A stretch of DNA of 64,000 nt from a virus. Position numbers and translations under genes: made by a program. Shown piece after piece: positions 34,303 through 50,605 of this stretch. The stretch is taken from positions 1 through 64,000 of IMG/VR virus record IMGVR_UViG_3300031669_000007. The stretch is one strand, 5' to 3'. The notes below the pieces were generated by a model. It was not told where the DNA came from and did no database searches. It saw nothing but the letters and a program-made list of their open reading frames with translations. The first letter of the stretch is position 1, and every line of letters begins with the position of its first letter.

Positions 34303-34872
34303 TTACTCAATAATTGCTGTATAATCTTCTTTAATGTATGATGAACCTGTCTTAAACATTGGCCAGTCAGAAAAATCGCCAGTATTTTCTATCATAATAC
34401 GCCAATCCGTAGATCCACCACTACTGTAAAAATTATTTAATGTATCAATATCAAATGGTTCATTCTGCCCAGCTTTGATATTATGCCATTGTTTCTTAAA
34501 TCTTGATAATCCCTTAACTACTTCTTGCATATCAGGAGAATGTATCTTACCCAAAAATAATGGGTTTTTCGCCAATCTTGATTTATAAAACCAGAGCATT
34601 TTAGAAAATATCTTTTGTCCTCTATATTCTTCTTTAACCCAAATATCATCGACTATGTTCTTATCATTCAATGAAGTATATGCTATTAGTTGATTCCTGT
34701 ACCATAAAGAATAATAGTCATTATATTGTCTAACTTGATATTGTTCAATATCTGCGATATATTTCCCGTGTGTTAGCCACAACTCAGAGTGTTCTTCCCC
34801 AAACTTTTTTGCAAGGTTAGAATAATCTGGACCTCGCCAAGGCATTTCGCTTATAAATTCTATGGATCTCAT
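34303..34872 (-). CDS. GNAT-like acetyltransferase with capsid-targeting-like leader
   Basis: A 189-residue protein. The N-terminus M-R-S-I-E-F-I-S-E-M resembles the T4 internal-protein leader, with a cleavage-type I-S-E. The body has W-V-K-E-E-Y-R-G-Q-K-I-F-S-K-M-L, matching GNAT motif A (acetyl-CoA binding). Start 34872 is chosen because CATAAATA ends 4 bases upstream; an adjacent in-frame ATG at 34875 is possible. Likely packaged and delivered enzyme; inference. Confidence 0.55.
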   Translation of the reverse strand: MRSIEFISEMPWRGPDYSNLAKKFGEEHSELWLTHGKYIADIEQYQVRQYNDYYSLWYRNQLIAYTSLNDKNIVDDIWVKEEYRGQKIFSKMLWFYKSRLAKNPLFLGKIHSPDMQEVVKGLSRFKKQWHNIKAGQNEPFDIDTLNNFYSSGGSTDWRIMIENTGDFSDWPMFKTGSSYIKEDYTAIIE

Positions 34873-34876
34873 CATG

Positions 34877-34884
34877 TATTTATG
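34877..34884 (-). promoter_or_regulatory. Late-type promoter CATAAATA abutting start
   Basis: Minus-strand CATAAATA followed by CATG-ATG. A transcript started at the usual distance would begin in the start codons. Confidence 0.5.
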
Positions 34885-35595
34885 CTAAGAGAGGCGATAG
34901 AACTTCTCAACCCTCGCCAACCATTTTTCTACATAAATATCCCACTCATCGCCTTCGACCACCCACTGTTGATACTCACATGCTCGACTACACATTAAGA
35001 TAACGCCAGTGCGTATATTTGTTTTATGTACTTCGTTGTGTGCCATTGCATAGGCAACAAGCTGAGTCTTATAATCCTCAACCCACTCGTCCTTTTTAGG
35101 CTTATTGGTCTGTTTATAGTCGAGAATTGACTCTTTTCCGTTCCAAATACCAGCCAAATCTGTTGACCCTGCATAGAGTCCTGGATAGTAAACGGGGACT
35201 TCCGTTCCCCATATCTCGTCCATATGAACTAGGCCCTTTTCTATAATTTGTTGTGCCATTGGATGAGCAATCTGTTGAACAGTGTTTGTTCCTGGGGCTT
35301 TGGATTCACCCAAGCAATATTGTTCGAGCATCTTATGCATCGTCGTTCCAACTCCGGCTGCTTCTGTTGTGATAGTTTGGGCTGCTTGATGTCCTACTCT
35401 TTTACGCCAATTTTGTAGGGCTGCTTTAGATTCCTCAGACTTGGTCTTATCTAAGATAGTTGTGACCGAGGGGAGTTTGCTACCGTCAGGAGTATCATAT
35501 AATCGTTTGCCATCTACTATGGCTCTGGACATTGCTTGATACGTGAATTTTTCTACAATCGGTATTTGTTTTTGTGGGTTAGTTATAAGTGTCAT
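34885..35595 (-). CDS. PD-(D/E)XK nuclease (RecB/Cas4-like)
   Basis: A 236-residue nuclease. G-T-T-M-H-K-M-L-E gives the N-terminal His; Y-A-G-S-T-D-L-A-G-I-W gives the first Asp; S-I-L-D-Y-K-Q-T gives the D-x-K pair; Y-K-T-Q-L-V-A-Y-A gives the Q-x-x-x-Y motif. Likely acts on phage DNA during recombination or packaging. The Cys cluster of Cas4 is absent. A TTGCTT-16-TATACA promoter lies upstream. Confidence 0.75.
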   Translation of the reverse strand: MTLITNPQKQIPIVEKFTYQAMSRAIVDGKRLYDTPDGSKLPSVTTILDKTKSEESKAALQNWRKRVGHQAAQTITTEAAGVGTTMHKMLEQYCLGESKAPGTNTVQQIAHPMAQQIIEKGLVHMDEIWGTEVPVYYPGLYAGSTDLAGIWNGKESILDYKQTNKPKKDEWVEDYKTQLVAYAMAHNEVHKTNIRTGVILMCSRACEYQQWVVEGDEWDIYVEKWLARVEKFYRLS

Positions 35596-35603
35596 GCATT
35601 AAT

Positions 35604-35631
35604 TGTATAACAACATACCATCAAAAAGCAA
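35604..35631 (-). promoter_or_regulatory. Possible promoter of the nuclease gene
   Basis: TTGCTT, 16-base spacer, TATACA on the minus strand just before the nuclease ATG. Weaker than the other early promoters. Confidence 0.4.
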
Positions 35632-35633
35632 GT

Positions 35634-36056
35634 TTATTGGCGATTTTTTGCTGCGCTTTTTGCCATATTCGAAACTGTTTCTTCCGAATCTTGTTCCGGC
35701 GACGTGTGTTCTTCACCGCTATCTTCGCCGTCGCCAGTATGCTCTTCATCGGAATCTTCATCCGAATCAGATGCAAGCTCGATTGTATCTTTATTGAAGG
35801 TTTTGATTAGGTCTTTTACTGCGTCATTGTTTTCGAATGCGTCAACAAGTGCATTATAATCGAATGTAGTATCGCCAGCGTTCTGAACCAATTGAATCAA
35901 GCTATCGGTGCGTAGTTTTGCAGATAGTTCTTTATCTTCAGAACGCTTCTTTAAGAACATAAGAACAGGCATAAGATTTGAAGATAGTGTATCTTCGCCG
36001 CCACCTAATTGATCTTCTGCTGATGCATCTTCAAATACTATTTCTCTTATTTTCAT
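35634..36056 (-). CDS. Acidic protein with capsid-targeting-like leader
   Basis: A 140-residue protein starting M-K-I-R-E-I-V-F-E-D-A, which fits the T4 internal-protein leader with an F-E or V-F-E cleavage position. The C-terminal 45 residues are extremely acidic (repeats of D-S-D-E-D-S-D-E-E). Acidic tail and leader fit a head-core or packaged protein. Starts at the stop of the 36056-36787 gene. Confidence 0.55.
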   Translation of the reverse strand: MKIREIVFEDASAEDQLGGGEDTLSSNLMPVLMFLKKRSEDKELSAKLRTDSLIQLVQNAGDTTFDYNALVDAFENNDAVKDLIKTFNKDTIELASDSDEDSDEEHTGDGEDSGEEHTSPEQDSEETVSNMAKSAAKNRQ

Positions 36057-36787
36057 TAACGACGCTCTCTACCAAGTGATTCCGGACCACCTGCGGCTGC
36101 ATCATCTGCGCCAAATTCATCTGGAGGAGCTTCACCGCCAAACTCATCTGCGCCGCCCATTTCGTCTGGAAGTCCTGCACCAGGCATACCTTCTGCTCCT
36201 GCTACGCCCGACATATCCATTGGTTCTTCTTGAGCTTCGCCGGTTAATGCGCGAGCTGCGCCGTCTACGCCATCGCGTGATTGGTTAAGTTGTTGTGATA
36301 ATGTTCCTAATACTTGTCCTACTGAGTTTTTGAATTGATCTGCTTGTGCTGCGCCAATCTGATCACGGATAGTGTCAATAAGTGCAGGAAGCTGTTCGTT
36401 CTGTAGTTTGCCTACTTTTTCGATCATGTCTTGAACTGTGTCAACCATGTCTTTTGCTGCAAGAATAGCTTCTGACTTTCCTAGCTCGCCTTCTTTTAAT
36501 TTACGCTTTGTTCTTTCTTTTGATTCTACTAATTTAGTTGCATCAATGAAGCGGGATAATCCTTCAAAGACAATAAGCATTTCTAAATACTGCGGGTCTT
36601 GTTCAGCTGTATGGATTAGGCTGCTTTTACGGATAGCATTGACTGCCTCCATAATCTTATCACGCATTGCTTCTGCTTTTGCTAGTGTTAGAGCTTCATA
36701 ATTGATTTTGAATCCAAAACGTGACTCGGTCACTTTGTTTAGTTTCTTCATTGATGGCTTGTTTTTTGTCATATCTGTCAGTTTCAT
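36056..36787 (-). CDS. Putative prohead core/structural protein
   Basis: A 243-residue protein: basic start (MKLTDMTKNKPSMKKLN), a helical body with long amphipathic helices (about 30-170) and a Gly/Asp/Glu/Pro-rich C-terminal 60 residues (M-P-G-A-G-L-P-D-E-M-G-G). Candidate V-T-E-S and L-K-E-G sites could be prohead-protease sites. Behind an exact late promoter at 36819-36826. Head role is inferred. Confidence 0.5.
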   Translation of the reverse strand: MKLTDMTKNKPSMKKLNKVTESRFGFKINYEALTLAKAEAMRDKIMEAVNAIRKSSLIHTAEQDPQYLEMLIVFEGLSRFIDATKLVESKERTKRKLKEGELGKSEAILAAKDMVDTVQDMIEKVGKLQNEQLPALIDTIRDQIGAAQADQFKNSVGQVLGTLSQQLNQSRDGVDGAARALTGEAQEEPMDMSGVAGAEGMPGAGLPDEMGGADEFGGEAPPDEFGADDAAAGGPESLGRERR

Positions 36788-36818
36788 GTTTGTGGTTTCC
36801 TATTAAAAACGCTTAATG

Positions 36819-36826
36819 TATTTATA
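36819..36826 (-). promoter_or_regulatory. Late promoter TATAAATA
   Basis: Exact minus-strand TATAAATA 31 bases upstream of the 36056-36787 gene, with AGGAAA near the ATG. Confidence 0.7.
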
Positions 36827-36840
36827 CTCAATTAAATAAT

Positions 36841-37347: not shown

Positions 37348-37522
37348 CGTTTTTAGTTCTCTTAAGGACATCTTTCTTAACTAGGCTACTGGCAATTAGC
37401 TGTTCTCTTGGATTTAGACTCTTCTTAAATACTCCGCCTGTCTCATTAAATTTCGACAATACTTCCCATTCCTCATTATTAAGTGGTATAGAAATATTGT
37501 TTAATAACTCGACGATTTTAAT
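37313..37522 (-). CDS. Hypothetical protein, start codon lost or ATT
   Basis: The frame ending TAA at 37313 encodes I-K-I-V-E-L-L-N-N-I-S, E-E-W-E-V-L-S-K-F, R-E-Q-L-I-A-S-S-L-V-K-K-D-V-L and D-G-K-T-I-Y-L-K, an ordered helix-turn-helix-like sequence. It has no ATG, GTG or TTG at the expected place. An ATT at 37522 lies 7 bases after GGGAG and overlaps the stop of the homing endonuclease upstream. That insertion probably replaced the original start. 69 residues; may still be translated from ATT. Confidence 0.55.
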   Translation of the reverse strand: MKIVELLNNISIPLNNEEWEVLSKFNETGGVFKKSLNPREQLIASSLVKKDVLKRTKNDGKTIYLKKIR

Positions 37523-38108
37523 TTTGTATCTCCCTGTTCTTTTTACGTTTAAGCCCTGTCCTAATTTTAACCCAGGCTTCTTTGCGTTCAGCCGACCATT
37601 TCTTGTCTGTCATTGCCTTAGCTATTTTCTTGCTTGTTTCTTTTAATTTAGGGCTCGTTTCTTTAGTAAGTCCGGTATTCCAGGACGTTGATACACCAAG
37701 CTCTTTTTTAAGTTTATTGTTCTTCTTTCTTGATTCATTCAGATTACGGGTATGTTCAGCAGTGCGTGGTTTATGATAAGCATGTTTACTGCATATTCTA
37801 CCCTTCTCGCCACCACCGTTTAATCCATTTTCAGGTCTTAAATTAGCCCAATTTTTTGATTCAACTATCTTTTCTTGTTCTGAAAAAATCTCAGCAAATT
37901 TTTTGCATTCTTCTTTATCATAAAATAAACAGAACCAAACTGTTTCAACATATTCTTTACCGTGTTTCATATTATGATTTTGCCAATATTTTCCAGATCC
38001 AAAATATGTAAGCATTTCTTCATAATTAGCAACCGTTTTGCCAAAATACAACTTGCCGGTTATGCGGTGTCTCTTTATATAAAGATATGTTGGTTTAAAC
38101 TCTCTCAT
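37518..38108 (-). CDS. GIY-YIG-type homing endonuclease
   Basis: A 196-residue paralogue of the genes at 14838 and 29546. Start at 38108 (MREFKPTYLYIKRH) overlaps the upstream stop (ATGA). Keeps T-Y-L-Y-I-K-R-H-R-I-T-G-K-L-Y-F-G-K-T, E-T-V-W-F-C-L-F and R-P-E-N-G-L-N-G-G. C-terminus is a basic NUMOD-like region (T-R-N-L-N-E-S-R-K-K-N). It has fitted itself into an operon using overlaps at both ends. Confidence 0.75.
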   Translation of the reverse strand: MREFKPTYLYIKRHRITGKLYFGKTVANYEEMLTYFGSGKYWQNHNMKHGKEYVETVWFCLFYDKEECKKFAEIFSEQEKIVESKNWANLRPENGLNGGGEKGRICSKHAYHKPRTAEHTRNLNESRKKNNKLKKELGVSTSWNTGLTKETSPKLKETSKKIAKAMTDKKWSAERKEAWVKIRTGLKRKKNREIQN

Positions 38109-38539
38109 GACTGTAGCCAAGGCTCGATAAAAATATTCTTAATGGCACCGTATGGGTGAAAGATGGGTAATATAAAACGTGCCGTCTCATCTAATCCAGT
38201 GATGACTGGCACTTGCTCAAAATCGGCATTTAGTGCAGACATTGGCTTGCCAGGCAAGTCATATACGCCCTCTGCTTCAATGGCCCAAGACCACTGCCAT
38301 ATAGTCTGGACTCCCGAGTAGAATTCTCCGAAATTATAAAAATCTACGTTGTCTTCGAATTTCTGCGGTAATTTGATATTCAAGGGTTGTGTTTTTAATC
38401 CAATACATTGTAGCACTGTTTCCCAGTTGCGCTGCTGGTTTCTTGCGATATCTTCTGTGTCAGAGCTTCGTGTTACTCCGGTAGCAGTTATATCTACTAA
38501 GGAATAGCCTATAAAGAATTGTGGATTCGCCGCGCTCAT
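38105..38539 (-). CDS. Probable virion protein, 144 residues
   Basis: Starts MSAANPQFFIGYSLVD. The block R-N-Q-Q-R-N-W-E-T-V-L-Q-C-I-G-L-K-T-Q-P is one I associate with a structural protein of marine T4-like phages. Trp/Phe rich centre (QTIWQWSWAIE). A GCTAAATA late-type element ends 4 bases before the ATG. Baseplate or tail role inferred. Confidence 0.6.
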   Translation of the reverse strand: MSAANPQFFIGYSLVDITATGVTRSSDTEDIARNQQRNWETVLQCIGLKTQPLNIKLPQKFEDNVDFYNFGEFYSGVQTIWQWSWAIEAEGVYDLPGKPMSALNADFEQVPVITGLDETARFILPIFHPYGAIKNIFIEPWLQS

Positions 38540-38543
38540 ACAG

Positions 38544-39152: not shown

Positions 39153-40412
39153 CTACTTTTTAATGACCTTACCGTCCTGTACGTATAGGAATCGTCTGAT
39201 CCATTCTGCGGTTGATTCTAGTATTTCTCTCTCATCCCTAGTGTAGAAGTGATCTGATGACATCATATGTACAATGACGTCGTCTATATCTTTAATCATT
39301 GGCACATCTTCCTCATCGTTCATATATATTATGGCTGCTTCTTTAAGCTTATCTACACCTGGGTTAATTGCATCTAATATCAGTTCATACTCTCTTTTTG
39401 CGTCGTCGTTATAATATAAATAACCAGGTGCATTTTCATAATCTACGTCACCGTTTTCGTCGACGAACCCTTCTTCCTGAAGCCAAGTATAATAATACTC
39501 GTCGTTCACTTCCCAGTCCGTCAGTCTATCGTCTGCTGACTCTGATGCATATTCACTGATCTGGTCAATGATCCTATTTAATACATTATCATATGCAAAT
39601 ATAATCATCTTAGAAAAATTAGGGTCAAACTGACGTAAGTTATTAATTAAATTACCAAAGCGTTTAGTTAATATATCAATTGGATCAACTGGCTCATCCT
39701 CTTCGTTCATAAACTGACCTGATGCAGCATGAACCTGATATTTTTCACCGTCGTATGCTGGCTGCTTAGGCAGAAGAATAAACATTGGTCCCTGGCGATT
39801 ATATCTGTCAAACATGTTATTATTCGTCGCTGCCGTGCACCAGGTTGTGCCCTGACCATAGTAGCAGGCTGCATCAGTATCTTCTGGCTGTACAATTCTG
39901 ACCGCTGCGTTACTATATATCTCTTTTGATTTGCCCTTAGGTATTGCTGTCTGAGCAGCGGTCTTTAGCTTATCTACTAATTCTGGTGTATGGGTAATCG
40001 TATATAGATCCTTAAAATTAATTCTATTTATGTCTCTGAGTTCGACCGGCAATATCTTTCTAAGTTTCATTTGTGCGAAGGTTTTGAGCCAGTCTGCGCC
40101 CTTTGATAATATGTCCTCTAGTGCCACGCCGCCGTTAGCATAAATTTTAGCCAGCCATGGTGTGTATTCTTTGTGTGTGGTAGGGTCTGCATTCTTCAAG
40201 AATTCAAGTATAAGATTTGAAATATGAGAAATAGTCTGCTGGTCGAGTTCTATTCCCTTCATGTCTGGTGATAGTAATAAAGATATCTGCCTATCTAAGG
40301 CAGGAGCAGGCATATTCCTTTCGTCTTTAAGCATGGCATTGACCAGTTTGCGCCCAAAGACCTGTATTGTCTTAGCTTGATTATATTCTACTAGAAATTC
40401 ATTGGCTCTCAT
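39153..40412 (-). CDS. Large packaged-type protein (WCTA motif)
   Basis: Start at 40412 (M-R-A-N-E-F-L-V-E-Y-N-Q); the leader has L-V-E before Y, like a prohead-protease site. The 419-residue product has a central block C-Y-Y-G-Q-G-T-T-W-C-T-A-A and R-Q-G-P-M-F-I-L-L-P-K (residues about 190-215), and a very acidic C-terminal third. I recognise the G-T-x-W-C-T-A block as recurrent in proteins of marine T4-like phages, with no known activity. Confidence 0.6.
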   Translation of the reverse strand: MRANEFLVEYNQAKTIQVFGRKLVNAMLKDERNMPAPALDRQISLLLSPDMKGIELDQQTISHISNLILEFLKNADPTTHKEYTPWLAKIYANGGVALEDILSKGADWLKTFAQMKLRKILPVELRDINRINFKDLYTITHTPELVDKLKTAAQTAIPKGKSKEIYSNAAVRIVQPEDTDAACYYGQGTTWCTAATNNNMFDRYNRQGPMFILLPKQPAYDGEKYQVHAASGQFMNEEDEPVDPIDILTKRFGNLINNLRQFDPNFSKMIIFAYDNVLNRIIDQISEYASESADDRLTDWEVNDEYYYTWLQEEGFVDENGDVDYENAPGYLYYNDDAKREYELILDAINPGVDKLKEAAIIYMNDEEDVPMIKDIDDVIVHMMSSDHFYTRDEREILESTAEWIRRFLYVQDGKVIKK

Positions 40413-40413: not shown

Positions 40414-41064
40414 TTATGCAACCCATGGGTCGACGATCACCGGGAAGTCTGATCCTCTAGACATTACGTTGTCGTTATGTAAATCCCAATACCAGTTCTT
40501 CTTGTCGGATATATTGAATAAATCAAGTATAGTAGACAATAATAAAGCGGTCTTCTCACGTCCAAGATTCTTGGTTAATTGATTAAACCATTTTTCTCCA
40601 TCGTGCTCTGCCTCTGTGCCCAGTTCGTGAAACACATTTGATGCATTTAGTCTATGAGCTGACCAAGAAATATTTACGCCTGCTCTTGCGACTGCTAACC
40701 CAATGACATCATTTTCATTGAGTTTCTCCTGACGAATCTGTAGATATGGGTTACCATTGAACATAAAGCTCTCAAACCCATAGAACTTAGGTAGAAAAGG
40801 ATTGTTTTGTCTATCCATGCAATACTTGGCCCAGAAGAAGAACATTTTTTGCCCTTTAGTAAATTGCGGTTTTCCCGACGTCGTTAGACCTTTCCCAAAC
40901 TGAGTTCCAAATATCTTTAAGACTTGACCCGTGCTTGGTTCTAAGAATGCCATCTGATCGACTCCCTGACCCAACTTCTTATATCCTTTTGCCCTAAGAA
41001 TCTTAGTAATGTCTACGTGATTATCGCTATATTCATCTATTTGTTCTATTTCGATTATTTTCAT
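40414..41064 (-). CDS. Protein-kinase-fold protein with leader
   Basis: A 216-residue protein. Leader M-K-I-I-E-I-E-Q-I-D-E. Kinase-like features: L-G-Q-G-V-D-Q-M-A-F (glycine loop), V-L-K-I-F (Lys), W-D-L-H-N-D-N-V-M (catalytic loop with D-x-H-x-x-N) and V-I-V-D-P-W at the metal-binding Asp. It is shorter than typical kinases and ends just after the last motif. Likely a phosphotransferase delivered with the DNA; substrate unknown. Confidence 0.6.
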   Translation of the reverse strand: MKIIEIEQIDEYSDNHVDITKILRAKGYKKLGQGVDQMAFLEPSTGQVLKIFGTQFGKGLTTSGKPQFTKGQKMFFFWAKYCMDRQNNPFLPKFYGFESFMFNGNPYLQIRQEKLNENDVIGLAVARAGVNISWSAHRLNASNVFHELGTEAEHDGEKWFNQLTKNLGREKTALLLSTILDLFNISDKKNWYWDLHNDNVMSRGSDFPVIVDPWVA

Positions 41065-41660
41065 CTTATTCTCTTTGTAGCAACTAGTTCCATATTTTTA
41101 GCATCTAATAGTTCGGGACTGTATTCTCCACCGTAATCCCAGGTATCTGTGTCTTTTGAATGAGTATATTCTGGATCGCGCATATCTACATTGACTGGCT
41201 TCCCGTTTAACCATCCGTGTATCTCAACATTTTTATGATACTTCTGTAGTTGTTTCCACACTGCGTGGCCACCAGGCGATTGGCTTGATGCAACTAATGT
41301 CTTCCCTAATTTAGTAATTAAAAAGGCATAGAAATTATGAGCCTTGAGTGTATTATTTTTATTAATAGCGTATAGACTTATATTCGTTAATATATTATTA
41401 TCTTCGTTTGCCCCAACTACTAAATCAACTTTTCCGTCTGGCGACACAGCATAATATCCATGCCAATCCCCGCCCTGAGGATCTTTCTCAAAATATACTT
41501 TGTGACCGTCTGGCATCTTAGCAATCTGAACACCGCCAATCTTTAGAAGTTGCTTTTCGTTAGATGGATCTTCCGGGTGCCATTTCCCCTTACGTTTAGT
41601 AATATAATCAAGCTCTTCAACCTCGTCAATTGTAGTCTGAATTACTTCATTGATTTTCAT
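41061..41660 (-). CDS. Packaged-type protein with leader MKINEV
   Basis: Start at 41660, overlapping the preceding stop (ATGA); leader M-K-I-N-E-V-I-Q-T-T-I-D-E. The 199-residue body is beta-rich (H-K-V-Y-F-E-K-D-P-Q-G-G-D-W) and ends in a segment L-G-K-T-L-V-A-S-S-Q-S-P-G-G-H-A-V-W-K-Q-L, a block I recall from hypothetical proteins of marine phages. Activity unknown. Confidence 0.55.
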   Translation of the reverse strand: MKINEVIQTTIDEVEELDYITKRKGKWHPEDPSNEKQLLKIGGVQIAKMPDGHKVYFEKDPQGGDWHGYYAVSPDGKVDLVVGANEDNNILTNISLYAINKNNTLKAHNFYAFLITKLGKTLVASSQSPGGHAVWKQLQKYHKNVEIHGWLNGKPVNVDMRDPEYTHSKDTDTWDYGGEYSPELLDAKNMELVATKRIR

Positions 41661-43153
41661 AAATCTAATTCCCAATAGTTTCCGCTGTCATTATGATCAA
41701 CGGACTTAAATCCTGCTTTCTTAAACATATCTTTTGAACCCACATTAGTCCATTCCGTGTATGCCTTAACCGTGTAATAACCATGTGCTTTTGATTGCTC
41801 AACTATGTATTTAAGCAATTCTGAGCCAAACCCTTGTCCCGTAGGTGTTGCGTCTATGCGATTAATATATGCAATTCCAGAACTATTATCTAAATCTAAC
41901 GTGGCTGATCCGCGTTTTGCTTGTGTTTCGCCTATTCTATCAATCCAGTTCTTAGCTGAGTTTGTTATGTGTGCATTTAAGAATACTCTCAGATTCCAGT
42001 CGCCTTTCTCTTCTATGTCTAATCGTTCTGTTTCTGACGATTCTTTTATTGATATCGACTTAATTTTACGAACTATTTCCCAGGTGTTTAACCCCTCCGA
42101 TATTGTTAATTTAGATTTAAATTCAAATTCAGGAAAATACTTACTGATAGATTTGGCAAATCTATCATATAATTTATTTCGACTTGGTAAATCTATCTTA
42201 CTTGAAAAGTAAATAGCTCCTATAGATTTATTTTCTCTGTCAAAATCAACGAGAATCAATGATAATATTTCTTTAATAGTTGCAAAAATTCTAAATGCAT
42301 CCCCTGTATTTTCTATATCCTGACTCAAATCCGACTTTTCTTCTCCTTTAATCAATGAAAATAAAACATTGATTACATTCTCATTCCCTCTAAATTCTTT
42401 TGCATATTTGACGGTAACAAGATAAGCTAATCCCGAATCAGTCTTAAATTTATAAGATTTTTTCGGCATTAAAGAATCTGAGTTATTGCTGTATTCGGGG
42501 GAATACTTAAACGGATACGGAGCATCGGCTAACTCGGTTAGCATTTTATTATCTTCTAATACAGTAGATGACTCTGTAATCTTAAATTCTGATTTATACC
42601 ACAAGTAGATGTCTGCAGAAGAACAACGCTTGTCGAACTCTCTGCGTAAGATATAATAAATTTGCTGTTTATCTGCTCTCGATAAATCATCCCAGTTACC
42701 AATGTCGCGACGCAATTGCCTTAATAAGGAATTAGACGATAGCTTTAGATAATCTTCTAATCTCCAAAAGAATGTAACATCGTCGTTGTGAGATGATTTT
42801 GACTTAGTCTTAGATGCCAATACACCCAAGTATCTATTAATTTGGAATAACGGAATGCTCACGCCGATATGAGTTTTAATATCCTTCTTAAATGTGTCTT
42901 GGTTATTTAATACAGCAAGCAAATTGCCCAGGTCAGAGCCTGAATAATGCAGTTGATCATAGGTATTATATTTTAGTGTATCTCTTGCGTAATCTGCTGT
43001 ATAATTTGGTTTGTAATGTCTTATTACTTCTAACATCATAAACATCAAAAAGACTATCTGTGCTATTTCGTCAGCAGACATGCCTTTAATGTCCTTTACT
43101 CCATAAAACATGCGAGCTTCGACGAGAGAATCAATGAAAGGTAGTAGTGACAT
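41657..43153 (-). CDS. Large protein with C-terminal GNAT domain
   Basis: A 498-residue protein. N-terminus L-L-P-F-I-D-S-L-V-E-A-R fits a leader with cleavage after L-V-E. A 350-residue helical region of unknown type is followed, from about residue 390, by a GNAT domain: R-I-D-A-T-P-T-G-Q-G-F-G-S-E-L-L-K-Y (acetyl-CoA loop) and M-F-K-K-A-G-F-K. Likely acetylates a host protein after delivery; inference. Confidence 0.6.
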   Translation of the reverse strand: MSLLPFIDSLVEARMFYGVKDIKGMSADEIAQIVFLMFMMLEVIRHYKPNYTADYARDTLKYNTYDQLHYSGSDLGNLLAVLNNQDTFKKDIKTHIGVSIPLFQINRYLGVLASKTKSKSSHNDDVTFFWRLEDYLKLSSNSLLRQLRRDIGNWDDLSRADKQQIYYILRREFDKRCSSADIYLWYKSEFKITESSTVLEDNKMLTELADAPYPFKYSPEYSNNSDSLMPKKSYKFKTDSGLAYLVTVKYAKEFRGNENVINVLFSLIKGEEKSDLSQDIENTGDAFRIFATIKEILSLILVDFDRENKSIGAIYFSSKIDLPSRNKLYDRFAKSISKYFPEFEFKSKLTISEGLNTWEIVRKIKSISIKESSETERLDIEEKGDWNLRVFLNAHITNSAKNWIDRIGETQAKRGSATLDLDNSSGIAYINRIDATPTGQGFGSELLKYIVEQSKAHGYYTVKAYTEWTNVGSKDMFKKAGFKSVDHNDSGNYWELDL

Positions 43154-43161: not shown

Positions 43162-43716
43162 TTATGGCATGTTGGGCCAAGTTAAGTTATTCTTGGTAAT
43201 ATTTTGTTTTGCTTCTAGTATCTGCAAATTCGCGAGACAGTGTAATCCTTGTACGAGCGGCGAGTTAAGTGGCACAATGTGATCTACGTGATAAGACACA
43301 CCTGTTAATTCAGTCAATGCTTTTGCTTGAGAATATAATGCCAAAATCTGATCTTTCTCGGCGATCGCCCATTGAGGTGTCGCCTGTAGCTTAGTTGCTC
43401 TTCTATTTGCGTTTTTTGCGTTGATCTTATCTGGATTGTTCTTTCTCCATTTTCTATTTGATTCTCTATGAAATTCTGGATTATTGCGCCTGAACTTATT
43501 CACTGATTCTTTGCTTCCTTCCGGATCTGCTATATATCTTTTATGAGCCGACTTCGTTTTATACAATGCAACCTTGTCTAAGTTGGCAGATTTCCATGCA
43601 TCGTTTTCAGTATTAATACAGATTTTGCATCTTGTCGTTAAGCCGCACTTATAGCCTTTATTTTTATAGAAAGAATCAAGCGATTTACTTTCGTTACATT
43701 TTGTGCATGTTTTCAT
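43162..43716 (-). CDS. HNH homing endonuclease
   Basis: A 184-residue protein. Zinc site at the start (C-T-K-C-N-E-S-K and C-K-I-C), a basic middle with N-P-D-K-I-N-A-K-N-A-N-R-R-A, and an HNH core Y-H-V-D-H-I-V-P-L-N-S-P-L-V-Q-G-L-H-C-L-A-N-L-Q. Paralogue of the endonuclease at 55294-55758. It sits within the packaged-protein block behind GATAAATA. Confidence 0.85.
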   Translation of the reverse strand: MKTCTKCNESKSLDSFYKNKGYKCGLTTRCKICINTENDAWKSANLDKVALYKTKSAHKRYIADPEGSKESVNKFRRNNPEFHRESNRKWRKNNPDKINAKNANRRATKLQATPQWAIAEKDQILALYSQAKALTELTGVSYHVDHIVPLNSPLVQGLHCLANLQILEAKQNITKNNLTWPNMP

Positions 43717-43772: not shown

Positions 43773-44549
43773 TCATGTAATAGGAGTGCCGCCAACGCGA
43801 AGTGTTTCTAATAGATCAGATCTAACTATAATACACGGTCCGCCTATCCACAATTCTTTATCTCGCATTCCACCGCCAGCAAATTCTTCTAAGTCATATA
43901 ATTGAAACCCGGTATTTTGTGGAGCCATTGCTTCTTCAATTTCTGGTAAAAAATCCTTAGGCTCAATTGGTTTAATTTTATTATCTTTAATTAAGTAGTT
44001 CAGTTCTCTCGCGAAGAAATCAGATTGAACTTCTTTAACCATTGAATTATAGTCCTGAGATAATCTCAGGTCTTCAAGAAATTCATTTAGGTCTGGAAAA
44101 TCAAGACCACTATAGACAAACGGTAGATCAATTCGTGTTTCCCATATATCAATGGCAGGACACACGGCAACCTTAACTCCTCTTGCTGGAAATACGGCAT
44201 AGGTTGCAGCCGACCACGGTGCTCCATGAGCATAATCAGATGCTCTGTCAAATTCAGTTGAACAAATTATGCTTCTACTTCTTTTTGGCCATCCATTGAA
44301 ATAAGGAGAATTATCCATTAATTCTGTGTAATAGTTAGATGTATTTTGTGATTGTCTAACGCCTGTGCTTGGATAAATCTTTAATATCTCCTGATTATGA
44401 TTGTTAAATCCGCGCCAGATAGGTTCTCTAATTAGTTCATCTACTACGGGGCAGAATTGCCTTAGTAATGTCTCTACCTTGTCGGTGTTGATTACTTCTT
44501 TTTCGTAAGGTTTAACCTCTGCTTCAGATATTATCTCATTGATTTTCAA
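43773..44549 (-). CDS. ADP-ribosyltransferase-like protein with leader
   Basis: A 258-residue protein from a TTG at 44549 that overlaps the preceding TGA (TTGA). Leader M-K-I-N-E-I-I-S-E-A, an exact I-S-E/A prohead-protease-type site. The body has I-W-R-G-F (Arg), S-R-S-I-I-C-S-T (Ser-Thr block) and D-K-E-L-W-I-G-G (Glu), the R-S-E order of ADP-ribosyltransferases. T4 Alt is a packaged ADP-ribosyltransferase with the same kind of leader. Activity is inferred. Confidence 0.6.
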   Translation of the reverse strand: MKINEIISEAEVKPYEKEVINTDKVETLLRQFCPVVDELIREPIWRGFNNHNQEILKIYPSTGVRQSQNTSNYYTELMDNSPYFNGWPKRSRSIICSTEFDRASDYAHGAPWSAATYAVFPARGVKVAVCPAIDIWETRIDLPFVYSGLDFPDLNEFLEDLRLSQDYNSMVKEVQSDFFARELNYLIKDNKIKPIEPKDFLPEIEEAMAPQNTGFQLYDLEEFAGGGMRDKELWIGGPCIIVRSDLLETLRVGGTPIT

Positions 44550-45307
44550 AATGGGTCATCCTCTATTGAATCATTGTCATCGTCGGCAGTGTCGTTTGTA
44601 TATCCTACCGTGCTACCCGAGAAAGGATTATATCCGGCTGCAATAGAACTGCCATTGTCTTGAAGAGGATCAGTTAATACTAATTGTATGCCAGTTGGTC
44701 CAAGCCGAATCATTATATTCCCTGCGTGTACATCAGTGCTAAACGCTGAATTAGAGTTATATACTTCTTGAATTAACTGTATAGCTTGAATTAATTTTTC
44801 ATCACTGAAAATCTCGTACATATTAATGCTTGACTCAATTCCTTTTTCAATGTCACTTGAAATATTCCACAGTAATAATTCTCCTAGACGATGGTAGGCC
44901 AGAGCTTTCTCAGTGTAAATCTTTTCGGCTATTATCTCAACTAAGTTTTCTATCTCAGAGTTTGCTTCACTAATTGTCATTAGTTTTTCCATATTATAAG
45001 CTGGTTTAACTAATCCATCGCTATATCTTTTAAAGACAACTTCATAGACTCTTGGGAAATATGGGTTGCTTTTCATAAAAGGAGAACATGCTTTGATATA
45101 TTGATAATATGCATCGTTCTTTAGATTAGATGGCATTCTTATTTTCTTACGATACATGTGAGTATCAAGAGGATCTGGTGTCCCACGAGCATACGCCCCA
45201 CCATTTGTAGTGTCGATTTTTTGTCTTTGCCCCATCTTTTCAATGTTGTATGGTTTGCTTATCGGACGCTCGACATGTATTGGTTCTATTATCTCATTGA
45301 TTTTCAT
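44546..45307 (-). CDS. Second kinase-fold protein with leader
   Basis: A 253-residue protein with leader M-K-I-N-E-I-I-E-P. Kinase-like elements: P-R-V-Y-E-V-V-F-K-R (strand and Lys), L-G-E-L-L-L-W-N helix, S-T-D-V-H-A-G-N-I-M-I-R (D-x-H-x-x-N catalytic loop) and L-V-L-T-D-P-L (metal Asp). The glycine loop is not clear. Acidic end (TADDDNDSIEDD). A paralogue in fold, not in sequence, of 40414-41064. Confidence 0.55.
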   Translation of the reverse strand: MKINEIIEPIHVERPISKPYNIEKMGQRQKIDTTNGGAYARGTPDPLDTHMYRKKIRMPSNLKNDAYYQYIKACSPFMKSNPYFPRVYEVVFKRYSDGLVKPAYNMEKLMTISEANSEIENLVEIIAEKIYTEKALAYHRLGELLLWNISSDIEKGIESSINMYEIFSDEKLIQAIQLIQEVYNSNSAFSTDVHAGNIMIRLGPTGIQLVLTDPLQDNGSSIAAGYNPFSGSTVGYTNDTADDDNDSIEDDPF

Positions 45308-46432
45308 TTATGTATTCCTTGCGAAATTAGCCTGGCTAAATTGGGTGCGATTAACCAATTTAATTGGTCCTCCCTCGTCGCTAGATACATAGCCCTCACC
45401 GCCACGTGCGCCTGCAATGTGTGCGATAACTGTTCCTTCATGTGAATCTAATTGATGAAGTATATCTAATTTTAGTCCGGTAATTAAATCGAATATATTA
45501 AATACTGCCTGTAATCCTGCTGCGTTTTGTTCTGAATAGGCAATTACCTTACCGACCATTGCCTTAGATATCTTTGGGTTAGATTGAACCCAAGAACCGA
45601 ACTTAGCATATAGATTGGTTAAATCTCTTGTCTTAACCTGTGCATTGACGTATGTGTATAATAGATCAGGCAATGCTGCCATCTTTTGTTCACGCAATAC
45701 ATCTTCGTCAAGGAACGCATCTACCACTTTGGCATTCTTCTTAACGTATTGTGTGATCTGTTTGGCTTTTACTTTGTCTGCTTGAAGAGTAGCTTCGTTC
45801 TTAATCTCCGGGCCTAAGATGCATAATGGGCCATTGAGGTTTAGTCCTGCTGTATTCTTTAATGGAACACCGTCTGCACCCACGTCTGAATAAAAGGTGT
45901 GAACAGCCATCCCAGCTTTTGATTGAGCTATGTGATGTCCGAGTTCAGAGTTCTTATCTACTTCATACGTTACCGTATTAGGCGTAAAGATGAATCGCTT
46001 AGTTGTTTCTTTTAGTTCGCCAGGGAACCACATAATATCGCCAAACACAAAACCACGATAATTAGAAGGCACCGAAGCCTGAACGATAGGCCAGATTGCG
46101 ACGATTTTAGCGAGATAATCTTCATCTCCACCTTTGCTGCGCTTTTGCTTAACAAATTCTTTAGCTGATTTATATAGTCCATTGTATCCTTTCGCGCCAA
46201 ATCCCGCTTTGTCAGTGAAGATGAATTCTCCATCTTCATTACGACCGAATACACAACTTGGTTTTCCATCCCATTTGATTGACAAAATATCTTTACTCTT
46301 GCTTAGACTTAATAAGTTATTAACTGCTCTGAGAGCACCAGCAGATTTTTCCCAAAAAACTAAGTCCTCGGCGTGCTGAATGCGAGCACCCTCATTGAGA
46401 ACTGATTCTACTATTATTTCATTGATTTTCAT
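45308..46432 (-). CDS. Ligase-like nucleotidyltransferase with leader
   Basis: A 374-residue protein with leader M-K-I-N-E-I-I-V-E-S. L-S-I-K-W-D-G-K-P-S (residues about 50-59) matches motif I (K-x-D-G) of the covalent nucleotidyltransferases; G-F-V-F-G-D-I-M-W is like motif III, E-G-T-V-I-A like motif IV and P-I-K-L-V like motif V. Similar proteins occur in many marine T4-like phages. DNA or RNA ligation is not shown; capping-type or decayed activity is possible. Confidence 0.6.
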   Translation of the reverse strand: MKINEIIVESVLNEGARIQHAEDLVFWEKSAGALRAVNNLLSLSKSKDILSIKWDGKPSCVFGRNEDGEFIFTDKAGFGAKGYNGLYKSAKEFVKQKRSKGGDEDYLAKIVAIWPIVQASVPSNYRGFVFGDIMWFPGELKETTKRFIFTPNTVTYEVDKNSELGHHIAQSKAGMAVHTFYSDVGADGVPLKNTAGLNLNGPLCILGPEIKNEATLQADKVKAKQITQYVKKNAKVVDAFLDEDVLREQKMAALPDLLYTYVNAQVKTRDLTNLYAKFGSWVQSNPKISKAMVGKVIAYSEQNAAGLQAVFNIFDLITGLKLDILHQLDSHEGTVIAHIAGARGGEGYVSSDEGGPIKLVNRTQFSQANFARNT

Positions 46433-47174
46433 TTTTTAATCGTTCCTTTAGTAATGGCAACAATGTTTTTCTAAATTCATTCTCATTCATATGCCCTTTA
46501 ACAGTATTCACTATTCTAAGACAAAAGACTAAATTTTCTGCGGCGGCGGTTTTCTCAGTAGGCCAGTTATAAAAGAATGCTTCATTGACCGAAATCTTAT
46601 GATCGATTGTCCTCTTCAGCGGGTCATTTGGGTTGACTTTTTCTAATAAATTGTCATTGAATGCAATGTCGGTATAATAGCATGTGTTAGGTATTAGGTT
46701 AATTTTCTTAATTTTGTCAACCTGTTTTTTAGTCATTGACTCTACTTCTTTTCTATAATTATTAAATTCCTCATTGATTTTTAATTTTTTATAAGGTATT
46801 AAGTTTTGTTTCTTGAACCCTTCTCCGGGTCGTTGGCCATTATTAATAACGCCATATCGATTAAGCATTGATGCCTGCATTTTACTTTGTCTCTTATCAT
46901 TGGTGTTTTTACCGCTAATCCCTTCATAAACACCGCCCTTCTTCAAAATTTCTGTGATCAAATTTCGCAATTTCCCACCAAAAACTTTAGTGCTTTCTTT
47001 CTCAATAACATATTTACAACATTCAGAAACCGAATATGTCTCTAAGTAATACTTAGCTATATAATCATTGAGAACATCCTTTAATCGTAATACTTCCTTC
47101 TGATAATCAGAACAATTTCTAAAATGAGCCGTATTTCCCTTAGGTATCTCTAATCCACAAACACATTCACACAT
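46419..47174 (-). CDS. HNH-type homing endonuclease
   Basis: A 251-residue protein. N-terminal C-E-C-V-C-G zinc motif with a later H-F-R-N-C, a basic middle with R-Y-G-V-I-N-N-G, and an HNH-like core R-T-I-D-H-K-I-S-V...A-A-E-N-L-V-F-C-L-R-I-V-N-T-V-K-G. Family differs from the other two HNH genes. Overlaps the start of the leader-bearing gene downstream by 14 bases. Confidence 0.65.
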   Translation of the reverse strand: MCECVCGLEIPKGNTAHFRNCSDYQKEVLRLKDVLNDYIAKYYLETYSVSECCKYVIEKESTKVFGGKLRNLITEILKKGGVYEGISGKNTNDKRQSKMQASMLNRYGVINNGQRPGEGFKKQNLIPYKKLKINEEFNNYRKEVESMTKKQVDKIKKINLIPNTCYYTDIAFNDNLLEKVNPNDPLKRTIDHKISVNEAFFYNWPTEKTAAAENLVFCLRIVNTVKGHMNENEFRKTLLPLLKERLKNENQ

Positions 47175-47442
47175 AATAGTTCTCCTTACTATTATTTATG
47201 CTGGATAGCGTCTTATCTAATAGAAGTTCGTTAATCTTCATAACTTCCATCCTTTCTGAGATAGGTACAGTTAATAATATTTGTTCAACTTTCTCATAAT
47301 ACTGATATGCGTCCATAATTCTTGGAATGGCAATACCAACACCGAGAGATATAATACCGGCAGCGGCCAATTTAGCAACTTTTGCTTTAATACTTTCTTC
47401 AAGTATTTGTGATTCTGTTAATATAAATTCGCTTGATTTCAT
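47167..47442 (-). CDS. Small leader-bearing membrane-type protein
   Basis: Start at 47442 (M-K-S-S-E-F-I-L-T-E-S-Q), an ATGA overlap; L-T-E/S is a good prohead-protease-type site. The 91-residue product has one hydrophobic helix (KLAAAGIISLGVGIAIP), so it could insert into the membrane after delivery. Its 3' end overlaps the HNH gene start. Confidence 0.5.
   Translation of the reverse strand: MKSSEFILTESQILEESIKAKVAKLAAAGIISLGVGIAIPRIMDAYQYYEKVEQILLTVPISERMEVMKINELLLDKTLSSINNSKENYYV
47193..47200 (-). promoter_or_regulatory. Late-type promoter CATAAATA
   Basis: Minus-strand CATAAATA 18 bases before the HNH gene at 46419-47174, with AAGGAG in between. Confidence 0.5.
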
Positions 47443-48197
47443 AATGTCCATCCCTCATTCTGATAATAGTGTTTAGCCAAAACAAGCCAATTTGAATTAA
47501 CCACTATTGCTTTGTCTGCTATTAGCATTATTTCGTGTGATGATCTAATGCCACCTATTAAATCTTTATTAAACTGATAATCACCGTCGATCATAAAATC
47601 ATTGACATAATTATAATTATCGAATACTTGTTTCATCTTTTCTTTTAAAGAAAAAGAACTAGCGTGTTCATCTCCGTCGCCAGCTGCATCAGTGAAGTGT
47701 TCCATACTTTCATACATATCGACATAATTTCTGGACCAGCAGAAGCTAAAATTACCCATTGGTATTACCACGACGGTATCACCGTATCCAGATGCCTTAG
47801 CTTCCTTACCAAAACAAAATAACGATTGGCGTCTAATTCTGATGTTTGTTCTTTCTTCAAACCAATCATCTATTGCTGCGCTAACATTCTTGGGTGTGTC
47901 TTTTGGGTTACGGTCTTTTCTGATGTTCACAGTGTTAAACGGATGCTCTTCTGGTATATCCATTGCCTGATGGTCAGGAATACCCACACCTCTGAATAAC
48001 GGGTAATTAAACAAAGCATTCTCGATGCCGCCGACCTGAGTCAGGTATGGTTGTGATGTTCTCGTCAGAAGAGCCGCTAACTCTGACAGCGACGATTTTA
48101 TTTTATTTACTTCATTTGCATCTGACCATTCGATATCATTCTCTATTTTTGCTGTGTCAGAATCAAGGTCTTCTAAGATTATGTCTTTAATTTTCAT
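47439..48197 (-). CDS. ADP-ribosyltransferase-like protein with leader
   Basis: A 252-residue protein with leader M-K-I-K-D-I-I-L-E-D. Core motifs: Y-P-L-F-R-G-V (Arg), R-R-Q-S-L-F-C-F-G (Ser block), V-V-V-I-P-M-G and S-S-H-E-I-M-L (Glu). Clear paralogue of the next gene (48194-48862): D-D-W-F-E-E-R and D-Y-Q-F-N-K-D are shared. ADP-ribosyl transfer is inferred from the R-S-E order. Confidence 0.55.
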   Translation of the reverse strand: MKIKDIILEDLDSDTAKIENDIEWSDANEVNKIKSSLSELAALLTRTSQPYLTQVGGIENALFNYPLFRGVGIPDHQAMDIPEEHPFNTVNIRKDRNPKDTPKNVSAAIDDWFEERTNIRIRRQSLFCFGKEAKASGYGDTVVVIPMGNFSFCWSRNYVDMYESMEHFTDAAGDGDEHASSFSLKEKMKQVFDNYNYVNDFMIDGDYQFNKDLIGGIRSSHEIMLIADKAIVVNSNWLVLAKHYYQNEGWTL

Positions 48198-48862
48198 TCT
48201 GGCTCCACCAATTTCTTTAAGAATTTCTGTCGTATTACTAATGCCTTTTTACAGGAGAGCATTATTTCTGTCCCGGAAAATATCGCACCTCGAATATTGG
48301 TATCAAATCGATAATCTCCTGAATCCATAAATTCGTTTATTCTAGCTTTGTAAAACTGTTCTGCCTCATGCACAGACATGCCAGCACCTCCGTTGGGCGG
48401 CTTGTAGTTAAATTTGCCTAATGCAACAAATAAGTCTCTATACTGGGCAGAATATGCATAGTGGTATTCTCCCATTGGTATTACAATTAATGCACCGGTT
48501 GCCATTCCTGAATAAGAAATAGCGATATCAAATCGACCAGTGCAATGCAACGATGTCTGTCTAAATCTGACACCTACACGCTCTTGAAACCAGTCGTCAA
48601 TGAGAATCTGAACTCCTTCAGGGGTATCTGTCGGAATCCGATTTTGATTTACTATAACAGTTTTGGCGTGAGAACCAGGCGGAAATTCTATTTTCTCTAT
48701 TCCTCGATACATTGGATAGTCGATTATTGCAGCGTCGAATCCACCTATCTCTTGAAGATATGGTTGACATTGTTCTTCTGCGAACATTCTTATGCCAGCA
48801 AACTCTTTAAGAAGCTCTTTTTTAGTGTCACTGTCTTCAGTAATTATCTCTTGTATTTTCAC
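48194..48862 (-). CDS. ADP-ribosyltransferase-like protein with leader
   Basis: A 222-residue paralogue of 47439-48197: leader M-K-I-Q-E-I-I-T-E-D; Y-P-M-Y-R-G-I, R-Q-T-S-L-H-C-T-G, L-I-V-I-P-M-G and G-T-E-I-M-L. The I-T-E/D site matches the T4 cleavage pattern. ATGA overlap on both sides. Possible target: host RNA polymerase or ribosome, by analogy with T4 Alt; speculative. Confidence 0.55.
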   Translation of the reverse strand: MKIQEIITEDSDTKKELLKEFAGIRMFAEEQCQPYLQEIGGFDAAIIDYPMYRGIEKIEFPPGSHAKTVIVNQNRIPTDTPEGVQILIDDWFQERVGVRFRQTSLHCTGRFDIAISYSGMATGALIVIPMGEYHYAYSAQYRDLFVALGKFNYKPPNGGAGMSVHEAEQFYKARINEFMDSGDYRFDTNIRGAIFSGTEIMLSCKKALVIRQKFLKKLVEPE

Positions 48863-49620
48863 TTTGGGTTCACCATCTGAGATAACGATCTATACCAGGA
48901 TGGAGAACCTACTTGAATAGATTCTGGCAAGTTAATTAATCCCTTTTTGGCATCTTCTCTTGCCTGTGCTAGTTTTGCATCTCTAGCTGGGTCAGATGCC
49001 AATGCTTTCATTATTGTTTTAATGCTGGCCAGGTCTGCTGCTGTTGCCTTAGGATTAAGCAGTATCTTAGCCACAGAATCTTTGTCGTCTGCTACCACCA
49101 CGCCTGTCTCTCTGTTAACTAGCTTGCCCTCAAATGGGCTGAACTTTAAGCCTAATGATTTGGCAATGCTTGAATATAATATGAATAGCTGACCGCCCTT
49201 AAAGTCTGGATCATCGTATTGTCCTGACGGACCATGCTGATGGAACGGTGCGACTTTAGCTGCATTCGGAATGACCATAATATCTAGCTGAACAAACGTG
49301 CCATCTGGCACTGGCATACGAACGTGGACATTACGTCCCGACAATGCGACCTGAAACCCCTCTTTCTCAATGTATTGCTTTAATGCTAATTTAGTATATT
49401 TCTCGTCTGGTGTATTAAATAACTGTGCTAATTTACCGGCATCAACAAATACATCCATGTCACCTGACTCAACCTTATATCCAGCCGATCCGATATCTGG
49501 AATAATATTAATTCCAAATGGCATTATCTTCTGAATATCTTTAATTATTCCTGGGACATATTCTCTTTTAATTGGAGATACGTCAGGAAATACATTTCCG
49601 CCTTCATTTAATTGATGCAT
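48859..49620 (-). CDS. Pol-beta-type nucleotidyltransferase-like protein
   Basis: Start at 49620 (M-H-Q-L-N-E-G-G) with AAAAGGA upstream; L-N-E/G is a prohead-protease-type site. The 253-residue body has I-G-S-A-G-Y-K-V-E-S-G-D-M-D-V-F-V (residues about 45-62), the G-S-x(n)-D-x-D pattern of pol-beta nucleotidyltransferases, and V-Q-L-D-I-M-V-I as the third Asp strand. Nucleotide transfer onto RNA or protein is possible. Confidence 0.6.
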   Translation of the reverse strand: MHQLNEGGNVFPDVSPIKREYVPGIIKDIQKIMPFGINIIPDIGSAGYKVESGDMDVFVDAGKLAQLFNTPDEKYTKLALKQYIEKEGFQVALSGRNVHVRMPVPDGTFVQLDIMVIPNAAKVAPFHQHGPSGQYDDPDFKGGQLFILYSSIAKSLGLKFSPFEGKLVNRETGVVVADDKDSVAKILLNPKATAADLASIKTIMKALASDPARDAKLAQAREDAKKGLINLPESIQVGSPSWYRSLSQMVNPK

Positions 49621-49621
49621 A

Positions 49622-50605
49622 TTAATTCCTTTTAGCTTTACCGCCATATGTTGGAGCTAACACCTGGTTCAACGTTGGCTTGTCCTTAGGCAGTGGATCA
49701 TTGACTGTTTTGTGCCATTCTTTGCCGGTTCTCGGCGTATCTAAGCTATTTTTCTTCTTTTTATTTTTTGCTTCTTCTAACTTCTCTTTCTTTAAGCGTC
49801 TGACAGCCATCTCCTTAACTGTGTATTCATTGATCAGCTTTTTAGCTTTGTTAATTGATTCGGTCATTTCTAGTTCCTCGTTATTTGTGCTGCGATTACC
49901 GACTATGCGGTTATACAGATCTGGCCGTACTCCGACTTTATCAGTGTGCTGTTTTGTTGCCTTAGCATAATAGTTGCCGGCCAAGTTCTTAGATATTTCA
50001 TTGACTTGTGATTCTTCGGTTGGCTGCGGTTCTTGCTTAGGCCGTCTATTAGCTCTAGCTTGCATTCTTCTTTGATAGCTAGGAGCCATTTTGTAAGGAG
50101 TTTGTGGAGATGGTGGAGCAGGAATAAACGTTCCTGTCTGATTGTCGGCCATTTTCTCTAATGCCTGAACTTGTGTAGGATCGACAATTTTTTGATTTAA
50201 TTCATTGACCCAACCTGCATTAGTTTTATAATATTTTCCCTTACTTCTAGGGTCAATGATCATAAACTTTTCCCCTGGCCTTAGAGCAGGCTCCTTCTGA
50301 GGCGTCTGAGACGTCTGACCTTGAGTAGGCATATTTGATGCTCTATTTGGGTTTGGTTTTACTTGCATCTGAGCTTGGCTTCTGGCTTGCGTAACTTCTT
50401 GGCGTTTTTGTTGAAAGTTTTTTTCTGCTTGATGACTTAAACTATGCTCTAAGTCGTGGGCGCCTAACCCCCTTGCCAGACCAGAATAGGCATTAGCGTT
50501 TCTATCAATGTGGCTACTAGCTGCGGCAGCGGCGTTAGCTGCACCCTTCTTAATAGCGTCCCATATTCCTTCGTCTAACTCACTGCTAAATTCATTGATC
50601 TTCAT
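49622..50605 (-). CDS. Basic, disordered internal head protein candidate
   Basis: A 327-residue protein. Leader M-K-I-N-E-F-S-S-E-L-D-E-G. Long Gln/Pro/Asn/Arg-rich, low-complexity body; further L/I/V-x-E sites (V-N-E-I, M-T-E-S, I-N-E-Y) could be cut during maturation. Lysine-rich end (KKEKLEEAKNKKKKN). This resembles the composition of T4 internal proteins that bind packaged DNA. Confidence 0.55.
   Translation of the reverse strand: MKINEFSSELDEGIWDAIKKGAANAAAAASSHIDRNANAYSGLARGLGAHDLEHSLSHQAEKNFQQKRQEVTQARSQAQMQVKPNPNRASNMPTQGQTSQTPQKEPALRPGEKFMIIDPRSKGKYYKTNAGWVNELNQKIVDPTQVQALEKMADNQTGTFIPAPPSPQTPYKMAPSYQRRMQARANRRPKQEPQPTEESQVNEISKNLAGNYYAKATKQHTDKVGVRPDLYNRIVGNRSTNNEELEMTESINKAKKLINEYTVKEMAVRRLKKEKLEEAKNKKKKNSLDTPRTGKEWHKTVNDPLPKDKPTLNQVLAPTYGGKAKRN

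Follow-up and report, generated by a model that had tools for sequence, protein, structure and literature searches.

A T4-type capsid-targeting leader is predicted on an expanded, enzyme-rich gene set in a virus contig related to jumbo T4-superfamily phages

The window analysed here comprises bases 1-64000 of the 92,630-base IMG/VR virus contig IMGVR_UViG_3300031669_000007. Between 34303 and 50605 it carries fourteen genes in which a first-pass annotation, made from the sequence alone, had seen a large set of packaged proteins sharing an N-terminal leader like that of the internal proteins (IPs) of phage T4. All fourteen proved to be real open reading frames (ORFs) where that annotation had placed them, all on the minus strand, and most of them lie between a phrog_11854 head gene and a phrog_14154 virion protein gene (Table 1). 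This stretch, from the gp68-like head gene at 50592 to the phrog_14154 gene at 36056, is interpreted as a cargo hotspot. For the DnaB-like helicase encoded at 51136-52569, the nearest matches are the helicases of jumbo T4-superfamily phages, namely Atu_ph07 of Agrobacterium (51%), PA5oct of Pseudomonas (49%) and Phosso of Sinorhizobium (47%).

A strong N-terminal leader, M-[KR]-x-x-[ED]-[IFV]-[IL]-x-E, is common to 11 of the 14 genes. When residues 2-10 of all 197 contig ORFs were clustered de novo, with no use of T4, the listed genes formed the largest group, with 23 similar pairs compared to a mean of 3.9 and a maximum of 8 in shuffles. In a leave-one-out leader profile, ten of the fourteen scored 11-23 and 34303 scored 10.0, counted from its second Met, while unlisted ORFs reached at most 2.6 at any start. 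The idea of a leader common to the whole set thus holds for these eleven and fails for 40414, 41657 and 48859, whose N-termini are weak or divergent from the consensus. Alone, the leader of 40414 (MKIIEIEQIDE) is weak; its homologs start MKINEIIAED, MKANEFITEY or MRASEIIDEY. The other two have conserved L-x-E starts of another type, MSLLPFIDSLVE/A in 41657 and MHQLNE/GG from the likely start at 49620 in 48859 (the slash marks the predicted cut).

The expected ending of the leaders in L/I-x-E was likewise largely recovered. All 14 listed genes have an [IL]-x-E among their first 14 residues, as do 15 of 180 other ORFs, a contrast that is only descriptive because the listed set had been pre-selected by a reader seeking the pattern. 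In several listed genes one such site is an I-x-E at residue 5; in 35634 this is the sole [IL]-x-E, and V-F-E stands at residue 9, the expected place. In 44546, I-I-E is followed by Pro. In the AlphaFold2 (AF2) models the leader is disordered and the body folded, for 47439 as well as for 45308.

Table 1. Leader-bearing genes of the hotspot and their flanking genes (ART, ADP-ribosyltransferase; MS, mass spectrometry; pLDDT, predicted local distance difference test; aa, amino acids; a slash marks the predicted cut)
Position	Strand	Feature	Basis or remark
34303-34872	-	leader MRSIEFISE/M, start at second ATG; weak GNAT match	profile 10.0; Pfam Acetyltransf_1 E=0.0013, slightly below cut-off
35634-36056	-	leader MKIREIVFE/D; acidic, position conserved across clade, probably head-core protein	PA5oct EST35_0238 at homolog position
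36056-36787	-	flanking virion structural protein family, no consensus leader	phrog_14154; PA5oct homolog EST35_0237 MS-flagged
39153-40412	-	leader MRANEFLVE/Y; 419 aa	leader profile
40414-41064	-	weak leader MKIIEIEQIDE/Y; gp0.7-like kinase family	phrog_15752 E=6e-7; VLKIFG, DLHNDN, DPW
41061-41660	-	leader MKINEVIQTTIDE/V; 199 aa	leader profile
41657-43153	-	N-terminus MSLLPFIDSLVE/A, conserved but divergent; GNAT domain at C-terminal end	Acetyltransf_1 E=2e-5, above cut-off; homologs LPFIxELxEAR
43773-44549	-	leader MKINEIISE/A, TTG start; ART-like family	phrog_12810
44546-45307	-	leader MKINEIIE, Pro next; kinase-like	phrog_15752 E=8e-7; motifs DVHAGN, DP
45308-46432	-	leader MKINEIIVE/S; DUF6267, KxDG invariant, ligase-like by motif	Pfam E=9e-37; AF2 pLDDT 89
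47167-47442	-	leader MKSSEFILTE/S; 91 aa	leader profile
47439-48197	-	leader MKIKDIILE/D; ART-like family	phrog_11975; model pLDDT 79, residues 1-24 disordered
48194-48862	-	leader MKIQEIITE/D, GTG start; ART-like paralog of 47439	family alignment
48859-49620	-	short start MHQLNE/GG; nucleotidyltransferase-like	motif GSAG..SGDxDV in alignment
49622-50605	-	leader MKINEFSSELDE/G; low-complexity, conserved in close relatives, possibly internal structural	leader profile, homologs
50592-50846	-	flanking head protein, virion structural	phrog_11854 E=9e-17; conserved in relatives; gp68-like; one hotspot border

The IPs of T4 are the proteins for which the capsid-targeting sequence (CTS) was defined. 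A profile built from ten of the window's leaders only and scored on 259 T4 ORFs placed IPIII, IPII, IPI and gp24 at ranks 1, 2, 3 and 4, a result equalled by 0 of 500 permuted-column profiles; the T4 gp24 is annotated as cut by gp21. The scoring allowed one skipped residue, a rule set after it was noticed that the T4 CTS is one residue longer (10 residues up to the Glu, compared to 9 here). The leader of T4 Alt came only at rank 8, and with a larger profile. The proposed resemblance to the T4 leader is well supported, with a leader one residue shorter. In T4, residues 4 and 7 govern targeting and residues 8 and 10 processing, and gp21 cleaves after L/I-X-E (PMC9026906). As in the CTS of IPI, IPII and IPIII (Mullaney & Black 1996; PMC9026906), a short N-terminal leader ending in [LI]-x-E sits here on unrelated bodies. 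The differences lie in scale and content: T4 has three IPs plus Alt, compared to 11-14 cargo genes at one locus here, and small inhibitors instead of many enzyme-like bodies of 200-500 aa with lineage-specific dialects.

Relatives were collected by a helicase-anchored scan (80 loci). In 61 helicase-anchored relatives, the profile of the window's leaders scored at least 10 in 40 of 326 genes downstream of the helicase and in 0 of 456 upstream (p=1e-16). At one locus (L266), successive downstream genes with different bodies start MKSTEFITED, MKSSEFITEV, MKSTEFITEA, MKANEFITEY and MKINEIIAED. The syntenic locus of Atu_ph07 has starts such as MRWEQLTE and MKWHQLTE, about eleven of them consecutive and others scattered, and the 484-kb uncultured phage LR756508 encodes about 20-30 proteins, mostly of 240-285 aa, that start M[KR][LF]KxLLxE or close variants. 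The cultured Salicola phage SCTP-2 (MF360958) has another dialect, with runs at 26-42 kb and 208-214 kb starting MK[IV]KHITQYLFE or MK[IV]ND[IL]LKEN and 27 linked leaders, mostly of the MK[IV][NK]xxLxE or MKVKHITQYLFE type. Many of the leader proteins in Atu_ph07 and LR756508 are homologs of 43773, 47439 and 48194, and homologous bodies carry the leader of their own genome (e.g. MKINEIISE here, MKWQQLTE in Atu_ph07, MKLKNLLSE in LR756508), which fits the prediction of a sorting tag with a genome-specific receptor. In Atu_ph07, LR756508 and SCTP-2 the dialect is present on some 12-30 genes per genome. Mean leader similarity, from hand-compiled leader lists, was 16.9 between unrelated bodies of the same genome and 8.0 between homologous ART-like bodies of other lineages. 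The leader is thus real, lineage-specific and carried by unrelated bodies, and its profile recovers the T4 CTS proteins and gp24. The cargo itself (kinases, ART-like paralogs, GNATs) varies among close relatives. In an IMG/VR pattern scan, at least 120 stretches matched MKINEII compared to 64 for the permuted MKIENII, which is only indicative because the control set itself holds leader-like starts (MKIENIINE); when 43773 and 47439 were searched against viral contigs, no relatives were recovered. In the head-gene cluster of LR756508 (152-163 kb of the record), about eleven small proteins share a longer N-terminus, MKxxExKLRxIIREEIxxxL, possibly a second targeting tag in that phage.

A gp21-type (S77) protease is encoded in all seven named relatives. 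The clade contigs G003 and G004 carry an S77 protease together with gp23; two further clade contigs, both possibly fragments, have neither. The major capsid precursors of PA5oct, G003, G004 and Atu_ph07 keep L-x-E directly before a conserved GATxSGN, comparable to FLTE/A in T4 gp23. The PA5oct record flags proteins detected by electrospray ionisation tandem MS (ESI-MS/MS), and among its four top leader scores EST35_0150, EST35_0238 and EST35_0381 are flagged. The first of these is located between the portal and scaffold genes, and the second (MKIKDILVE) holds the position of the 35634 homolog; EST35_0231, which looks like the counterpart of 48859 by motif and position, is flagged as well. At scores of at least 6, five of nine proteins are flagged compared to about 74 of 388 annotated coding sequences (CDS), the latter counted by eye with 172-222 kb uncounted (p about 0.02). 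In Atu_ph07, CDS 31-76 are one of three virion-protein clusters, with 29 proteins detected by MS (PMC6102473), and the leader locus gp053-gp063 falls inside this cluster.

The bodies behind the leaders do not differ completely, as had been assumed: 43773, 47439 and 48194 form one family, and a second comprises 40414 and 44546. The latter is gp0.7-like kinase in character; phrog_15752 is matched by five of six family members, the alignment keeps the motifs VVK, DLHxGN and DPW, and one homolog has a weak match to Kinase-PolyVal. Pol-beta-type nucleotidyltransferases typically carry a GSAG..SGDxD motif like that of 48859. For 45308 the match to DUF6267 (PF19782) is firm (E=9e-37, 127.7 bits, cut-off 27), and its neighbours in a fold search of the PDB include RNA and DNA ligases, without significance. 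The family of 43773, 47439 and 48194 has about 50 members in the examined genomes. Over 259 T4 proteins its profile ranks ModB first and ModA third, with weak E-values (best E=0.008 in a reversed-sequence control), and aligns with them at LYRG/LWRG and, for ModA, at EVMI. In the family alignment, the R of YRG is conserved in 100% and the G in 94%, the Ser in 86% and the Glu in less than 75%. Given the low scores, a Glu that some members lack and a negative fold search of the PDB, we label this family ART-like and not ART. Fold searches of the PDB with the ART-like and DUF6267 models gave nothing significant, the accompanying BFVD search returned phage proteins, including several of Atu_ph07, and no explanatory named function, and PDB profile searches with the ART-like, DUF6267, nucleotidyltransferase-like and kinase-like families found no significant match. 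The description of the set as enzyme-rich can therefore be kept for its candidate kinase-like, GNAT, nucleotidyltransferase-like and ligase-like members, supported at motif or family level only. By family searches most window members are single-domain proteins, compared to at least two effector domains per chain in the Polyvalent type; relatives in Atu_ph07 carry fusions, with gp053 combining an ART-like domain and a zeta toxin and gp063 a weak GNAT and an ART-like domain. Outside the window, the contig encodes a NAMPT-like enzyme and, by eye, an NMNAT plus Nudix protein (contig positions 77557-78954 and 80001-81056), which would form an NAD+ salvage pair in a phage carrying ART-like cargo.

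Taken together, it is highly probable that the leader is a CTS of the T4 internal-protein type and that packaging has been expanded into an enzyme-rich cargo which would be cut, ejected and active in the host. The reading as CTS with cleavage site, proposed from the outset, and the packaging that goes with it are well supported by the recovery of the T4 IPs and gp24, the genome-specific leaders, the gp21-type proteases of relatives and the MS-flagged PA5oct homologs. Packaging of the leader-bearing set thus has strong, if inferential, support. Removal of the leader we infer from the motif and the protease, and injection and host action by analogy with T4. The first residues of the leader would bind the prohead core, so that each tagged protein is built into the prohead, and the gp21-type protease would then cut after [IL]-x-E and free the mature protein inside the head. 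Ejected with the DNA into a new host, the cargo enzymes might alter proteins of that host or weaken its first line of defence, as do T4 Ip1-3 (PMC12373910; PMC9391042), injected anti-restriction proteins that bear such leaders (PMC12373910). The hotspot would mix conserved internal proteins (49622, 48859, 45308, 35634) with variable, probably host-modifying enzymes (ART-like proteins, gp0.7-like kinases, GNATs), and the dialect of each lineage is presumably co-adapted with its own core.

Several observations weigh against this interpretation. The virion evidence comes from relatives and not from this phage, and the contig is probably a fragment, since the T4 portal family was not detected in it and gp23-type head genes were not seen among its ORFs; its own protease or scaffold was not shown on it. 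In PA5oct the best-scoring leader, EST35_0271, is the unflagged one among the top four, and the flags include probable contaminants (e.g. thymidylate synthase) in numbers that are small. The site in 44546 is probably a poor one for cleavage. Cyanophage S-PM2 encodes DUF6267 but shows no leader set, so that the leader system is not universal among T4-like phages.

It is also conceivable, if rather unlikely, that the leader is a prohead-core tag on proteins that are mainly morphogenetic or internal structural and that help to build the head or stay in it instead of being injected. The families of 35634, 48859 and 45308 are kept throughout the clade, also in members with few other cargo genes, the similar leaders of T4 gp24 and PA5oct EST35_0150 belong to structural proteins, and T4 IPIII influences head morphogenesis (PMC9026906). 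However, much of the set is enzyme-like and variable among close relatives, unlike structural proteins, and the injected T4 Ip1-3 with their comparable leaders also argue for delivery. Such a role may nevertheless apply to 35634 and 49622, perhaps also to 45308 and 48859, which may be core or internal structural proteins and not effectors because they are clade-conserved even where the cargo set is small.

Explanations in which the leader has no part in head assembly are much less credible. A shared N-terminus without a targeting role, arisen because 5' ends recently recombined or were duplicated, or through selection on translation initiation, is very improbable. A-rich first codons do favour initiation, and the leader codons of the neighbours 43773, 44546 and 45308 are nearly identical (AAA ATC AAT GAR ATA ATA), but the other leaders differ in synonymous codons, the same body families wear different amino-acid leaders in other phages with the Glu always kept, other genes of the contig have no leader, and the profile recovers T4 head proteins. 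A translation or recombination effect was rejected on this codon and dialect evidence. We give slightly less credence still to a tag for a purpose outside the head, e.g. docking on another phage structure or proteolysis via an adaptor that reads N-termini. The phage does encode a homolog of such an adaptor, ClpS, at 16137-16448 (E=4e-24). Against this stand the specific recovery of T4 head proteins cut by gp21, the match of the sites to gp21 specificity and the virion-protein genes that bracket the locus.

CTS leaders as such are already known and have already been used for finding ip genes in T-even phages. Hotspots of these genes were reportedly described by Repoila in 1994, and at least ten ip genes have been reported from T-even phages (PMC12373910). 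In both cases the packaged sets vary and are recognised by a common leader, whereas the sets described here are much larger, occupy another locus, beside the gp41-type helicase and the gp68-like gene, and belong to phages far from Tequatrovirus. Alt of T4 is carried in the head and injected. With Alt, ModA and ModB the likeness is limited to the weak similarity of the ART-like family to ModB and ModA, and the leader of Alt is not of the window type. The T7 gp0.7 kinase is related by the family match and kinase motifs; it is made early after infection, whereas the kinases of the window would be virion-borne. In phiKZ and SPN3US, many inner-body and ejection proteins of the head are likewise cut after Glu by a gp21-related protease and ejected, but they belong to another phage group, their propeptides are longer and the motif in phiKZ is S/A-x-E (PMC9026906). 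Polyvalent proteins (Iyer et al. 2017, PMC5512222) include the same ART, kinase and GNAT classes and are predicted to enter with the DNA; they fuse 2-15 domains per chain, in contrast to mostly single-domain proteins, each tagged, here.

A review has proposed the CTS as a general protein-loading route for T4-like phages, and earlier predictions, made on other grounds, include packaged ARTs (PMC9503650) and polyvalent effectors (PMC5512222). In the open-access literature, with most subscription papers and all preprints outside its scope, we found neither lineage-specific CTS dialects nor enzyme sets of such size in jumbo phages. The cargo that jumbo phages inject lacks a recognisable sequence. 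A leader found de novo in each genome gives a testable list, naming the hypothetical proteins expected in the virion and their predicted cut sites, and it predicts which proteins these phages probably deliver into the host cell. Candidate counter-defence and takeover enzymes would come in large number, among them the expanded ART-like family, whose structure searches gave no solved relative, and matched pairs of leader and core might serve to load proteins into phage heads. The chances seem evenly balanced that this reflects a general, genome-specific sorting code in T4-superfamily jumbo phages, each dialect being read by its own prohead core and tens of host-modifying enzymes being loaded per head. 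If so, repertoires like those of LR756508 and SCTP-2, with about 20-30 tagged proteins and many ART-like paralogs, would be comparable to the effectors of bacterial secretion systems and could be read from genomes by N-termini alone.

Small genes at 37518, 43162 and 46419 break up the locus and, by eye, look like homing-endonuclease-type insertions; those at 43162 and 46419 had no Pfam match. Three GIY-YIG-like proteins that start PTYLYIKRHxxTG or similar (14838-15602, with a weak GIY-YIG match; 29546-30193; 37518-38120) resemble homing endonucleases scattered along the genome. The ClpS homolog is unusual in a phage predicted to make many new N-termini by cleavage. A further 24 small proteins of 67-102 aa (window 6191-9732, 23000-24807 and 56913-61658; contig 83823) share an ending like F..E.D..LF.LRW and are otherwise mostly dissimilar; the one tested against Pfam had no match. 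Outside the window, a UvsW-like helicase gene (contig positions 66586-69386) is apparently split by an intein-like sequence (CLAPGTLIKTPTGEVPIETLQPGDKVFSF ... HNHKVANGLVVSN), and another ORF lies in between.

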